NCBI RefSeq assembly: GCF_003052265.1
Contig: NZ_QANS01000002.1
Coordinates: 248,001 to 312,000, forward strand
Origin: Stenotrophobium rhamnosiphilum
GTDB taxonomy: Bacteria; Pseudomonadota; Gammaproteobacteria; Nevskiales; Nevskiaceae
Length of the DNA stretch: 64,000 nucleotides
Reading direction: 5' to 3'
Part shown: positions 3,968 through 60,152 of the stretch, in pieces
How the letters are laid out: the number at the start of each line of letters is the position of its first letter
Numbering within the stretch: the stretch's first letter is position 1
The notes under the pieces: generated by a model
The model's input: the letters and a program-made list of their open reading frames with translations, nothing else
Told to the model about the DNA's origin: nothing
The model's database searches: none
Translations under genes and position numbers: made by a program

Positions 3968-4879
3968 ATGAGTTATCGCGGTCGTTTTGCGCCGACACCT
4001 AGCGGCCCTTTGCACATGGGCTCGCTGTTCACTGCCCTAGCCAGCTATCTGCAAGCACGCGCAAGAGGTGGCCAATGGCTAATACGCATCGACGATCTGG
4101 ATATCCCACGCAACGTGCCGGGCGCAGACACCGCCATTCTCAAGCAGTTGGAATCTCACGGACTGCAATGGGACGAAGCCCCGCGCTACCAGTCGCAGTA
4201 CATCCAGCAATACCAACACGCTTTAAATGTGTTGACCGAACGCAAATTGCTCTACGGCTGTACGTGCACGCGAGCAGAATTGGCTGCGACTACGCTCGCA
4301 GGCCCAGATGGGCCGGTATATGCGGGCACTTGCCGCGATAAAAGTGTCGGCGCAGAAAAACACTCACTGCGCGTACGTGCAGATGACAGTTCACTAAGCT
4401 TCGTCGACTTGCTGCTCGGTGAGCAAACGCGACAACTGCACAACGAGATCGGTGATTTTGTTGTGCAGCGCAGTGATGGAATTTTGGGCTATCAACTGGC
4501 CTGCGCTGTAGATGAATTTGAGCAAGGCATTACTGAAGTAATTCGTGGTGCAGATCTGTTGGATTCAACCTTTCGCCAGCTTTACCTGCAACAGCTACTC
4601 GGACTGAAACCTGCGCAATACGGGCATTTGCCGGTGCTGGTGCAAAACGATGGAAAGAAGCTCAGCAAGCAAAATCATGCCGCGCCTATCGACGCAAAAG
4701 ATGCTCCAAGCAATTTGCTGCAATGTCTCACTGCCCTAGGCCAGAACCCACCTACTTCACTGTTCAGCGCCACTCCAGCCGACATCCTGAACTGGGCGAC
4801 TCAGCAGTGGGATATTGCCCATATCCCCAAGAAAACCGCCTTGCAGTGGAGTAATAGTCCGGCTTCTGGCATTCTTTAA
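3968..4879 (+). CDS. gluQ: Glutamyl-Q tRNA(Asp) synthetase
   Basis: This 303-residue protein is a truncated glutamyl-tRNA synthetase that lacks the anticodon-binding domain. It activates glutamate and attaches it to queuosine in tRNA(Asp). RGRFAPTPSGPLHMGSL at the N-terminus holds the HIGH-type motif (HMGS), IDDLDIPR follows, and KKLSKQN is the KMSKS-type motif. C98, C100, Y118 and C122 match the zinc site of the family. An upstream in-frame TTG at 3956 would add four residues, but the ATG at 3968 starts the conserved sequence and is preceded by GGGTGG, so it is preferred. The stop codon is 29 bases from the start of phaR. In many gammaproteobacteria this gene follows dksA; here it does not. 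Confidence 0.92.
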   Translation: MSYRGRFAPTPSGPLHMGSLFTALASYLQARARGGQWLIRIDDLDIPRNVPGADTAILKQLESHGLQWDEAPRYQSQYIQQYQHALNVLTERKLLYGCTCTRAELAATTLAGPDGPVYAGTCRDKSVGAEKHSLRVRADDSSLSFVDLLLGEQTRQLHNEIGDFVVQRSDGILGYQLACAVDEFEQGITEVIRGADLLDSTFRQLYLQQLLGLKPAQYGHLPVLVQNDGKKLSKQNHAAPIDAKDAPSNLLQCLTALGQNPPTSLFSATPADILNWATQQWDIAHIPKKTALQWSNSPASGIL

Positions 4880-4892
4880 CGCAGTGCAACAT
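4880..4892 (+). promoter_or_regulatory. Putative PhaR operator box 1
   Basis: CGCAGTGCAACAT lies directly after the gluQ stop and 16 bases before the phaR ATG. The core GCA(C/G)TGCAACAT recurs at 5508-5519 and 5632-5644. PhaR regulators are known to bind TGC/GCA-rich sites at phasin and phaR promoters and to repress their own gene, so autoregulation is likely (inference). Confidence 0.55.
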
Positions 4893-4908
4893 TTTTTGAT
4901 CCAGAGCC

Positions 4909-5424
4909 ATGTCAGATACGCGCGTTATTAAGAAGTACCCCAACCGCCGCCTTTACGATACCGATATCAGCCGTTACATCACGCTGGAAGAGATTCGCCA
5001 ACTGGTTCTGGAAAACATTAAGTTCCGCGTTGAAGACAAACGCACGCACGAAGACATTACTCGCAGCATTCTTCTGCAAGTAATTGCAGAGCAAGAAGAA
5101 GGCGGCAACCCGATCTTCACCACTGATCTGCTGCTATTCATCATTCGCTACTACGGCGATCCGATGCAGCACAGCATCAGCCGCTACCTCGAACTGTCGA
5201 TTCGCATGTTTGCTCAGAATCAGATGCACTTCACTGAGCAGCTGCGCAATATGCTGGGCCAGGCTCAGCAACCTATGCAGATCCTGAAGGAAATGGCTGA
5301 TCGTCAGATGCCAATCTGGAAGTCGGTACGAAAAGAGTTCATCAAGAACCTTTCCACCAAAAGCAAAGTGCTAAAAACGCTTCGCCCAGGCGAAACCAAT
5401 AACGACGCTCCTCCGTCGCCTTAA
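4909..5424 (+). CDS. phaR: Polyhydroxyalkanoate synthesis repressor PhaR
   Basis: The 171-residue protein begins RVIKKYPNRRLYDTDISRYITLEEIRQLV, the signature of the PHB/PHA accumulation-regulator DNA-binding domain (about residues 5-65). The following PHB_acc region covers about 70-110 (LLFIIRYYGDPMQHSISRYLELSIRMF) and the tail is polar. PhaR binds both DNA and nascent polyester granules: with no granules it represses phasin and its own gene, and granules titrate it away. A putative operator (4880-4892) sits just upstream and two more follow downstream. No phasin, phaC, phaA or phaB gene lies in this window, so its main targets are elsewhere, apart from the candidate RNA at 5639-5765. Confidence 0.92.
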   Translation: MSDTRVIKKYPNRRLYDTDISRYITLEEIRQLVLENIKFRVEDKRTHEDITRSILLQVIAEQEEGGNPIFTTDLLLFIIRYYGDPMQHSISRYLELSIRMFAQNQMHFTEQLRNMLGQAQQPMQILKEMADRQMPIWKSVRKEFIKNLSTKSKVLKTLRPGETNNDAPPSP

Positions 5425-5507
5425 GCTCAAATCCGAGGTTCACTGAATAATCCACCGCATTTATCGCGGCTGAGAGGCTTTGCGCTTTCGATTTGATTAT
5501 TTTTTGC

Positions 5508-5519
5508 GCACTGCAACAT
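5508..5519 (+). promoter_or_regulatory. Putative PhaR operator box 2
   Basis: GCACTGCAACAT matches boxes 1 and 3 over the 12-base core. It lies 84 bases after phaR in AT-rich sequence. I found no convincing promoter elements directly around it, so it may be an auxiliary site for box 3, 112 bases further on. Confidence 0.4.
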
Positions 5520-5603
5520 TTAAAATGACGTTACGGTCATAGTTGACCAGTCATATGCTTATAACTTATTGAAAATAATGCGTTTAAATTTTTTACGCAT
5601 TTA

Positions 5604-5632
5604 TTGACATAGAGGTAAGTCATCTTTATACT
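5604..5632 (+). promoter_or_regulatory. Strong sigma70-type promoter of the candidate small RNA
   Basis: TTGACA at 5604-5609 is a perfect -35 and TATACT at 5627-5632 a near-perfect -10, with an ideal 17-base spacer. Transcription would start near 5639. No open reading frame with a ribosome-binding site follows before the terminator at 5738-5764, and the next gene downstream (pnp) is on the other strand. Confidence 0.75.
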
Positions 5633-5644
5633 GCACTGCAACAT
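5632..5644 (+). promoter_or_regulatory. Putative PhaR operator box 3, over the -10/start of the RNA promoter
   Basis: TGCACTGCAACAT starts at the last base of the -10 element and covers the expected start site. A repressor bound there would block RNA polymerase. The core is the same as in boxes 1 and 2. The PhaR assignment rests on motif identity with the box in front of phaR. Confidence 0.55.
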
Positions 5645-5765
5645 AACCCTGAAATGAAAAACCCGGCTAGGCTGGGTAGCGTAACCGGGTTATCACCAGT
5701 CTCCTCCAGAAAGGCCTAGCGCCTTTCTCGCACTTAACCCCCGGTTTACCGGGGGTCTTTTTTTG
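5639..5765 (+). ncRNA. Candidate small RNA, about 127 nt, three hairpins with CU-rich linker
   Basis: From the predicted start to the T-run there are three stem-loops. Hairpin 1 pairs AACCCGG (5660-5666) with CCGGGTT (5685-5691). Hairpin 2 pairs AGAAAGGC (5708-5715) with GCCTTTCT (5721-5728) around the loop CTAGC. Hairpin 3 is the terminator. The single-stranded linker between hairpins 1 and 2 holds TCTCCTCC (5700-5707), complementary to Shine-Dalgarno sequences, a feature of trans-acting repressor RNAs. The loop of hairpin 2 (CTAGC) is complementary to GCTAG at 5666-5670 in hairpin 1, so a kissing or pseudoknot contact is possible. There is no sensible coding potential. It is not recognised as a known RNA family. 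Confidence 0.6.
5738..5764 (+). terminator. Rho-independent terminator of the candidate small RNA
   Basis: CCCCCGG (5738-5744), loop TTTA, CCGGGGG (5749-5755), then TC and seven T residues. The T-run is on the plus-strand side, so it ends plus-strand transcripts. Confidence 0.9.
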
Positions 5766-5834
5766 TCCGTTATAAATAACGGACTATGTGCAGCACACAT
5801 ATTTCTTGTGCGCCGCTTATTCGGGGTTAAAAAC

Positions 5835-5867
5835 AAGAGGGCCGATTCTGTTAGAACCGGCCCTCTT
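5835..5867 (-). terminator. Terminator of the rpsO-pnp transcript
   Basis: AAGAGGGCCG (5835-5844) pairs with CGGCCCTCTT (5858-5867), with a further inner TTCT/AGAA pairing. Read on the minus strand it is followed by TGTTTTTA. It lies 13 bases past the pnp stop codon. Confidence 0.85.
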
Positions 5868-5879
5868 TATCAACTAGCT

Positions 5880-7976
5880 TTACTCGCCGACGTCGCCGGT
5901 CTTCATCGACAGACGGATACGGCCCTGTTTGTCGACTTCGAGAACCTTGACGCGAACGGTCTGGCCTTCCTTAACGACATCTTCAACTTTCTCGACGCGC
6001 TTGTCGGAGAGCTGCGAGATGTGAACGAGGCCATCTTTGCCTGGCAGAATCGTTACGAATGCGCCGAAGTCCATCAACTTGGCAACCTTGCCTTCGTAGA
6101 TGGTGCCGACTTCAACATCACGCGTCAGCGCGTGGATGCGAGCGATAGCGGCGTCTGCAGCATCCTTGTCGGTTGCTGCAACTTTGACGGTGCCGTCATC
6201 GCTGATATCAATCGAGGTGCCGGTTTCTTCGGTGATCGAACGGATGGTGACGCCGCCCTTACCGATGACTTCGCGAATTTTGTCTGGGTGAATCTTGATC
6301 ACGGTGATGCGTGGCGCAAATGGCGACATGTCGCCACGTGCCTTCGGCATCACTTCAATCATTGCGTCAAGGATGTGCAGACGTGCGTCCAGAGCCTGTG
6401 CAAGCGCGTGGCGCATGATCTCGCCGGTGATGCCGGTGATCTTGATGTCCATCTGGAGGGCGGTAACGCCTTCCTTGGTACCGGCAACCTTGAAGTCCAT
6501 ATCGCCGAGGTGGTCTTCGTCACCGAGAATGTCGGTGAGAACCGCCCAACGATCGCCTTCTTTGATCAGGCCCATTGCAACGCCAGCAACCGGCGCTTTG
6601 ATTGGCACGCCAGCGTCCATCAACGACAAGCAAGCGCCGCAAACGGAAGCCATCGACGATGAACCGTTAGATTCGGTAACTTCCGAAACCACGCGAACAA
6701 CGTAAGGGAATTCTTTATCCAGATCTGGCAGCACAGCAGCAACGCCGCGCTTAGCCAAACGACCGTGACCGATTTCGCGACGCTTCGGCGCATTCATGCG
6801 GCCGGTTTCGCCTACGCAGTACGGAGGGAAGTTGTAGTGGAACATGAAGCTGTCATGCCACTCGCCATCGATTGCGTCGATGACTTGGTAATCCTTGCCG
6901 GTGCCCAGCGTGGTGACTGCGATAACCTGCGTTTCGCCGCGAGTAAACACAGCTGAACCGTGAGCGCGCGGCAGGGTTCCGGTGCTCATTGCCAGCGGAC
7001 GCACGGTGACTTTGTCACGGCCGTCGATGCGTGGCGCGCCATCGAGAATACGGTTACGCACAACCTTGGCTTCGAGCTCATGCAGCTCGGCCTTGATCTG
7101 GTTTTCGGTGAGGCCTTCTGGCTTAGCGGCAACTGCAGCCTTGCGGATATCGCCGATCGCTGAATAGCGGCTCTGCTTGTCCGTGATGTTGTAGGCTTCG
7201 TTGACCTTACCTTCGTAAGGGGCCATGAATGACTTGACGACGCTGGTATCAGCAGCCTTCCAGTCCCACTTGGCCTTGCCGGCTTCAGCAGCAAATTCGT
7301 TGATCGCGATGATCGCGGCCTGCATCTGTTCGTGACCGAACAGTACGGCGCCAAGCATCACGTTTTCTGGAAGCATCTGCGCTTCAGATTCAACCATCAG
7401 CACAGCGTCCTTGGTACCAGCGACGACCAGATCGAGCTGCGAAGTCAGCAGCTGCGTCTTGCTTGGGTTGAGAATGAAGTTGCCGTTTTCATAACCGACG
7501 CGAGCTGCGCCGATCGGGCCTTCGAAAGGAATGCCAGACAGTGCCAGCGCAGCCGAGGCACCGAGCATTGCAGGAATGTCGCCATCCACTTCTGGATTCA
7601 GCGACATCACCATCGCAACGATCTGCACTTCGTTGTAATAGCCTTCTGGGAACAGCGGACGCAGCGGACGGTCGATCAGTCGCGAGGTCAGCGTTTCTTT
7701 TTCAGTCTGACGGCCTTCGCGCTTGAAGAAGCCACCAGGCACGCGACCACCAGCGTAGAAGCGCTCCATGTAATCAACCGTGAGCGGGAAGAAATCCTGC
7801 TCGGGCTTGGCTTCCTTCTTGCCGACGACGGAGACGAAAACAACCGTCTCGTTGATCGTGACGATCACCGCAGCAGTTGCCTGACGCGCTACGGCGCCTG
7901 TCTCGAGAGTTACGGTATGGCTACCGTATTGAAAAGTCTTTTTAACGGGCGTCGCAGGTACGGCAGGAATTGCCAT
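5880..7976 (-). CDS. pnp: Polyribonucleotide nucleotidyltransferase (PNPase)
   Basis: The 698-residue protein has the full PNPase layout: two RNase PH-type domains (the first from [18 protein letters not shown], the second from [26 protein letters not shown]), an all-alpha linker between them, a KH domain ([21 protein letters not shown]) and a C-terminal S1 domain ([34 protein letters not shown]). It degrades RNA 3' to 5' using phosphate and joins the RNA degradosome in many proteobacteria. The start ATG is 64 bases from the end of rpsO, the usual gene pair. PNPase commonly represses itself through the rpsO-pnp leader, but no RNase III-type long hairpin was obvious in the short gap here. Confidence 0.97.
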
Positions 7977-14613: not shown

Positions 14614-14690
<77 letters not shown>

Positions 14691-44784: not shown

Positions 44785-44860
<76 letters not shown>

Positions 44861-44890: not shown

Positions 44891-44966
44891 GTCCCCATCG
44901 TCTAGAGGCCTAGGACATTACCCTTTCACGGTAAGTACCGGGGTTCGAATCCCCGTGGGGACGCCA
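44891..44966 (+). tRNA. tRNA-Glu (TTC)
   Basis: A 76-base cloverleaf: acceptor GTCCCCA/TGGGGAC, anticodon loop CCTTTCACG with anticodon TTC, T-arm CGGGG-TTCGAAT-CCCCG and encoded CCA after G73. It is 30 bases behind tRNA-Ala and shares its promoter. Confidence 0.97.
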
Positions 44967-59797: not shown

Positions 59798-60152
59798 GGG
59801 GCCGACTTGGATTCGACGGTGATTGGAAGGCTGACGTGCATGCCGAGGTGCAGTGGTCCTCGTAAAACTCTTCTGCAACTAAGCTAGTTGCTAACGACGC
59901 AAACTACGCCCTCGCCGCTTAAGCGGTGAGCGTTTGACCAGGTGGTGTTGGTACCCCTGAATCAGACGTCGACTCTTACCAAATCGCGCAGCGGAGGGCT
60001 ACTGGCCAAAGCGTTAAATCCAAAAAGTAGATAAGCGTTAGCGTTCCGTGCCCATTCGGCAGCTAACGACGAAAAATAATAATCGGGCTACGCATGTAGA
60101 TCGAATGTTGGAAGGTTATCGGACGGGGGTTCAATTCCCCCCGGCTCCACCA
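59798..60152 (+). ncRNA. ssrA: Transfer-messenger RNA (tmRNA, ssrA)
   Basis: The 355-base RNA starts GGGGCCGACTTGGATTCGAC and ends GGGGGTTCAATTCCCCCC GGCTCC ACCA, forming the tRNA-Ala-like domain. The tag frame at 59890-59922 reads GCT AAC GAC GCA AAC TAC GCC CTC GCC GCT TAA, giving ANDANYALAA (E. coli: ANDENYALAA after the charged Ala). Pseudoknot-forming stretches lie between. It rescues stalled ribosomes with SmpB. Its 3' end is duplicated downstream (60311-60330). Confidence 0.97.

Follow-up and report, generated by a model that had tools for sequence, protein, structure and literature searches.

Several systems already described, as presented in excerpts of the cited papers, bear on the findings below. 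The RNAs of Rfam family RF02278 (Betaproteobacteria toxic small RNA) in Burkholderia cenocepacia contain CU-rich unpaired stretches, and three of the four share an upstream motif; three of them rise 8.0-, 6.9- and 4.3-fold in glucose medium, overexpression of one (ncS27) slows growth, and their regulator is stated there to be unknown (PMC5688073). The NmsR sRNAs of Neisseria lower translation by means of anti-Shine-Dalgarno (anti-SD) sequences (PMC5362039). For the repressor PhaR, footprints and alignment gave the consensus TGCRNYGCASMA in Bradyrhizobium (PMC6201568), and YTKNTGCRNYGCANMAR is the consensus in Ralstonia eutropha (PMC12849132); PHB takes PhaR off DNA in R. eutropha and H. seropedicae. 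In Sinorhizobium, the ppdK promoter holds a 12-mer, TGCACTGCAACA, identical to the box described below and efficiently shifted by PhaR in gels, while a consensus-like site at guaB was not bound; PhaR control of an sRNA, MmgR, is likewise already known from this genus (PMC12542648). New among the literature matches listed are the Nevskiales sRNA family described here, the predicted PhaR control of RF02278 RNAs and the copies lying in phasin 3′UTRs.

The window analysed here is a 64,000-nt stretch of the Stenotrophobium rhamnosiphilum genome. On sequence evidence we consider it probable that the interval 5604–5764 is the gene of a trans-acting, anti-SD sRNA under direct PhaR repression and induced by PHB.

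The predicted sRNA locus between phaR and pnp

The sRNA locus (5604–5764) sits between phaR, which lies upstream, and the convergent pnp gene. Its features are as follows.

4880–4891, +: PhaR-like box CGCAGTGCAACA upstream of phaR (the motif scan gave 4881–4891; the first base was read from the sequence)
4909–5424, +: phaR, PHA synthesis repressor (TIGR01848, E 6.9e-42; PF07879/PF05233)
5507–5518, +: second PhaR-like box CGCACTGCAACA, ~125 nt upstream of the main box
5604–5609, +: −35 element TTGACA, conserved among copies
5627–5632, +: −10 element TATACT, conserved among copies
5632–5643, +: PhaR box TGCACTGCAACA over the start region (consensus from PMC6201568, PMC12849132 and PMC12542648)
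5638–5764, +: predicted sRNA, ~125 nt, its start placed from the −10 spacing
5660–5691 (extended 5649–5699), +: hairpin 1, which differs between genera
5700–5707, +: unpaired anti-SD linker TCTCCTCC, invariant in 43 aligned copies
5708–5728, +: hairpin 2, 8 bp, paired in 43 aligned copies
5737–5764, +: intrinsic terminator, a hairpin (5737–5756) plus a T run
5835–5867, −: terminator-like hairpin of pnp
5880–7976, −: pnp, polynucleotide phosphorylase, the convergent neighbor

The initial annotation had described this interval as a near-perfect sigma70 promoter followed by three stem-loops next to phaR, and the layout holds up well. TTGACA, a 17-nt spacer and TATACT give 11 of 12 promoter matches, and the upstream gene is identified as phaR by the TIGR01848 match given above. 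A promoter scan of positions 4500–7000 returned three promoter-like sites where 2.2 were expected, so the assignment rests on conservation rather than on the scan. The search pattern left bases 3 and 4 of the −10 free; among 43 promoters, base 3 is T in 41 and base 4 is A in 42. The conservation of the −35 reflects a pattern that itself required most of TTGACA. The minimum free energy (MFE) fold of 5640–5765 contains hairpin 1, hairpin 2 and the terminator at −47.5 kcal/mol (z = −3.58), and none of 200 shuffles was equally stable. All of the linker at 5700–5707 is single-stranded in this fold, as had been claimed. The absence of an ORF was likewise confirmed, the sole listed ORF of at least 80 aa that touches the interval starting at 5763, antisense to pnp.

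Two points of the earlier description stood only in part. The proposed contact between the CTAGC loop of hairpin 2 and GCTAG in hairpin 1 is present as a complement in the window but is not conserved: of 46 copies, only 4 have a 5-nt complement linking the hairpin-2 loop with the 5′ part, and we rejected the contact as a conserved feature. The box (5632–5643), said to cover both the −10 and the start, overlaps the −10 at its final T only and therefore covers the start region, not the whole −10.

An Rfam scan of the sRNA interval returned no family at its gathering score; the best sub-threshold matches over the RNA by E-value were ncS54 (23.6 bits), anti-hemB (21.0 bits) and RF02278 (21.9 bits). 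The window also contains a tmRNA and three tRNA genes (59798–60152, 44785–44857, 44891–44963 and 14617–14690).

Conservation of the RNA

A search at the DNA level recovered the element from 58 of 61 genomes, the window's own included. A covariance model of 66 positions was built from 43 of the 47 distinct copies, the other four being kept out of alignment A1 as near-identical. It matched 80 of the 85 genomes of the order, again counting the window's own, with 124 copies at one to five per genome; the covariance search proposed for related genomes returned homologues in most Nevskiales genomes. Within the class, 11 of 369 genomes were matched, 4 of those 11 belonging to the order. Hairpin 2 is paired in all 43 aligned copies and nearly invariant, with a loop that is variable and not CU-rich. 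The initial annotation had named a lack of compensatory base changes in relatives as one refuting outcome; two of the eight hairpin-2 pairs are changed on both sides, and all 344 cells pair. These sequence comparisons strongly support a conserved sRNA gene whose anti-SD linker does not vary and whose start carries a PhaR-type operator.

Tandem sRNA copies occur in some Nevskiales (e.g. G015), while the window genome has one copy. In loci L006, L010, L024, L026, L027 and L043 such copies lie a few hundred bases apart near phaR, and tandem paralogues with a weakened PhaR box may answer to another signal. The spacer between −35 and −10 (5610–5626 in the window) carries a partly conserved AGTMAGTYA-like motif in many copies, possibly the site of a second regulator.

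Eight covariance-model matches lie outside Nevskiales. Locus L131 has the order phaR-sRNA-pnp with a TATGAT-box promoter (phaR by Pfam, pnp by eye). In L128 and L130 a small alanine-rich gene, with two or more PhaR boxes in its promoter, immediately precedes the RNA, and in L128 this gene follows phaR (recognized by eye). The alanine-rich protein (L128:1044–1385 and its L130 counterpart) had no Pfam or NCBIfam match and may be an unclassified phasin. The other five matches (L123, L124, L129, L132 and L133) have no box within 500 nt upstream. L131 also contains an rsmX match on the minus strand (1882–1995) that is below threshold, at 30.5 bits against a gathering score of 56.

The PhaR-type box at sRNA promoters

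The PhaR core consensus TGCRNYGCANMA is present at the sRNA promoter of the window. The strict pattern TGC[AG]N[CT]GCA[ACG][CA]A was found in 41 of the 47 distinct copies, always at one offset starting from the last base of the −10, compared with 26 of 1026 flank windows and 1 of 47 for the reversed motif, which upholds the PhaR-type box seen at the sRNA start by the initial annotation. Six copies do not match: in L026 and L027 the first copy still satisfies the looser Ralstonia consensus, L039, L043 and L024 deviate by one or two bases with the position unchanged, and L011 has lost the box. Further upstream, 30–230 nt ahead of the transcript start, 11 of 46 copies have a strict box, and the CGCAGTGCAACA box before phaR may reflect autoregulation.

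The window genome contains GCACTGCAACA 15 times without mismatch. Two of these sequences stand at the sRNA and one at a phasin promoter, nine fall within ORFs, two immediately precede other genes and one lies beyond the end of a gene. The phasin gene is identified by PF09361 (E 1.6e-7), and its promoter reads TTGACA-17-TATGAT-box, the same layout as the sRNA promoter. With up to one mismatch the 11-mer occurs 188 times genome-wide versus 143 for its reversed pattern, so mild an enrichment that single boxes elsewhere mean little. PhaR itself is near-universal, being found in 80 of the 85 genomes of the order (relatives among named GTDB genomes include Solimonas, Fontimonas, Sinimarinibacterium, Nevskia, Hydrocarboniphaga and others) and in 60 of 60 genomes of the family sampled for RF02278, and its co-occurrence with the sRNA therefore gives no independent test.

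That sample comprised 60 genomes of 60 genera from a family whose name, Burkholderiaceae-like, we infer; the plasmid phasins nearest to one of its phasins belong to Polaromonas, Cupriavidus, Caballeronia and Paraburkholderia. RF02278 matched 51 of the 60 genomes, 40 of them over threshold. Among the 67 listed matches, a strict PhaR box lies at most 160 nt upstream in 38 of the 43 scoring at least 50 bits (L185, with 37 nt of upstream sequence, being scored as a miss) and in 8 of the 24 weaker ones; the controls gave 2 of 612 flank windows and 1 of 67 for the reversed motif. In 26 of 28 box-bearing loci a −10-like element follows the box at a distance of 9–11 nt, another usual repressor position; this count omits L185 as well as L189, which has no strict box. 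The PhaR box thus keeps company with the RNA though its promoter position shifts, from the start in Nevskiales to before the −10 in RF02278 loci. Of the weaker matches, five follow a phasin gene recognized by Pfam, at distances of 7–98 nt, and another two follow phasins recognized by eye. Plasmid searches with two RF02278 loci returned no matches.

Across the class, RF02278 matched 82 of 274 genomes, 2 over threshold. A strict box was found in 3 of 30 RF02278-like loci (L093, L103 and L108), and the wider RF02278-like group is therefore mostly not PhaR-linked. The gammaproteobacterial loci L094–L121 (e.g. L095, L100 and L105) carry an RF02278-like RNA of the form CTCCTCCATCCTCCTTTGGTGG-terminator; most of these RNAs score under the Rfam threshold and most lack a PhaR box, and they are perhaps an unnamed sister family.

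The window RNA scores 21.9 bits with RF02278 against a gathering score of 50, which by Rfam's rule leaves it outside that family; the family model gives 31.5 bits on L021 (one of six Nevskiales loci given) and 28.0 on L128. In the opposite direction, the Nevskiales model R1 was run on 20 of the 30 long RF02278 loci and found 19 at the sRNA (16.8–23.4 bits, E 0.0024–0.075), L184 being the miss. Each match is weak, and we therefore regard a single distant superfamily of window and RF02278 RNAs, suggested by these sequence scores, as likely but not proven.

We regard as unlikely the alternative in which the sRNA is real but the box serves as an element of the promoter or of the initially transcribed region, or is bound by a regulator other than PhaR. 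Every Nevskiales copy that has the box has it in contact with the −10, which an initiation element might also show, and the partly conserved spacer motif could serve a second regulator; against this, the same consensus takes up its other promoter position in the RF02278 group, recurs at phasin or phasin-like promoters and matches the PhaR-bound sites of other species. We think it very unlikely that the element is a structured 3′UTR and terminator of the phaR mRNA with no role in trans. In 68 of the 76 genomes that have both genes it does follow phaR in the same orientation, 427–937 nt from the matched PhaR domain, but the RNA has its own conserved promoter, and its linker is invariant whereas hairpin 1 varies. 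Moreover, 44 of the 124 copies were not scored beside phaR (contig breaks being scored as not beside), and among the copies read, the seven that are clearly elsewhere all keep promoter and box, a count that omits two further box-bearing loci, L058, which starts within phaR, and L017, which sits at the end of a contig.

The two remaining alternatives concern what the transcript does. Hfq binding through U-rich terminator tails is common to many sRNAs, and the tail of this RNA could bind Hfq; the single-stranded stretch that never varies is CU-rich rather than GGA, and we give very little credence to titration of a protein (CsrA/RsmA or Hfq) in place of pairing. Still more improbable is that the interval encodes a small protein. 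The ATG at 5655 opens a frame of ~21 codons, but it is kept in 3 of 17 aligned full-length copies and has no Shine-Dalgarno sequence before it, and this ORF was rejected as a candidate.

Proposed circuit and relation to known systems

For the preferred reading, an anti-SD sRNA repressed by PhaR, the analysis shows the sequence, the structure, their conservation and the position of the operator, and from these we infer transcription, PhaR binding, linker pairing, the targets and the sign of control. When no polyester is present, PhaR would occupy TGCACTGCAACA over the transcription start and block the sRNA. As PHB accumulates, PhaR is predicted to shift to the granule, as described for other species, and the sRNA would then be made together with the phasin, the two promoters being alike in layout. 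The open UCUCCUCC linker could pair with purine-rich Shine-Dalgarno regions and lower the translation of a set of mRNAs, probably those for the uptake and breakdown of further carbon substrates. This chain, from PHB through departure of PhaR and synthesis of the sRNA to repression of targets with strong Shine-Dalgarno sequences, draws on the RF02278, NmsR and PHB/PhaR literature. The RF02278 "toxic" double-hairpin sRNAs would be distant relatives, predicted to be under the same PhaR control.

Candidate targets were taken as genes with GGAGGAGA before the ATG in six Nevskiales genomes (128 places), of which 106 proteins were kept after removal of duplicates, proteins under 80 aa and unplaced ones; the control sequence AAGGAGAA gave 81 places, 80 fetched and 59 kept. 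The 106 include seven TonB plug, five Rieske and three DUF1302 proteins, none of which families is among the 25 of 84 listed for the controls, and blastp of these 15 proteins found no relative among the 59 controls. The three families are weakly suggested as target classes by this sequence comparison, in which the families were chosen after looking and the two Shine-Dalgarno types may differ for other reasons. In this linker-based target prediction, a check proposed at the outset, signal-peptide-like starts were not enriched (41 of 106 targets versus 17 of 59 controls, p = 0.24). Among genes with long flanks, a strict PhaR box was found in 0 of 36 targets and 0 of 20 controls. One DUF1302 gene (L168:1–1503; G000 C18:24476–24533) contains GGAGGAGAC, a perfect 9-nt complement to the sRNA linker, and an 11/12 PhaR-like box ~47 nt before its ATG, and offers a lead.

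The proposal names a candidate regulator and signal for a widespread family of sRNAs, the control of which is stated to be unknown in the excerpted text of PMC5688073. If true, it couples the storage of carbon to post-transcriptional regulation across many PHB producers, and these sRNAs should go up in phaR mutants and down in phaC mutants. We lean, with modest conviction, toward a broader view, in which one ancient circuit has PHB-sensing PhaR release an anti-SD sRNA superfamily that throttles carbon uptake and breakdown when stores fill. Its members would be the Nevskiales family, the Burkholderiaceae RF02278 RNAs and the phasin-3′UTR copies, and both the shared upstream motif and the glucose response in Burkholderia would be due to PhaR.

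Among known RNAs, the RF02278 members ncS03/05/27/62 of B. cenocepacia resemble the window RNA in having a GTCTCCTCC stretch, a short hairpin and a terminator, and like the Nevskiales RNA they often occur in several copies per genome and have a PhaR box in the promoter; cross-matches between the two are weak both ways. The window RNA differs in its extra 5′ hairpin, in the sequence of hairpin 2 and in the box, which overlies the start instead of preceding the −10. The Burkholderia families RF02871 (ncS54) and RF02837 (anti-hemB) show similarity over the linker, hairpin and terminator that is sub-threshold, at 23.6 and 21.0 bits under gathering scores of 43 and 49.5. The NmsR sibling sRNAs, as excerpted from PMC5362039, share with the window RNA three stem-loops and an anti-SD linker between SL1 and SL2, and with some Nevskiales, such as G015, tandem copies. 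They differ in RelA control and in a second anti-SD sequence in the SL2 loop, a trait absent from the hairpin-2 loop here, which is non-CU in the window and variable and not CU-rich in the aligned copies. MmgR of Sinorhizobium meliloti (alpha-r8), in the excerpted reports, is an sRNA linked to PHB, and PhaR shifts a PhaR (AniA) site in its promoter (PMC12542648, PMC8401924). It is an alphaproteobacterial RNA that also answers to nitrogen, and the likeness noted here is one of regulation; as such it is a functional precedent for a PhaR-controlled sRNA, one that the circuit proposed here would generalize.
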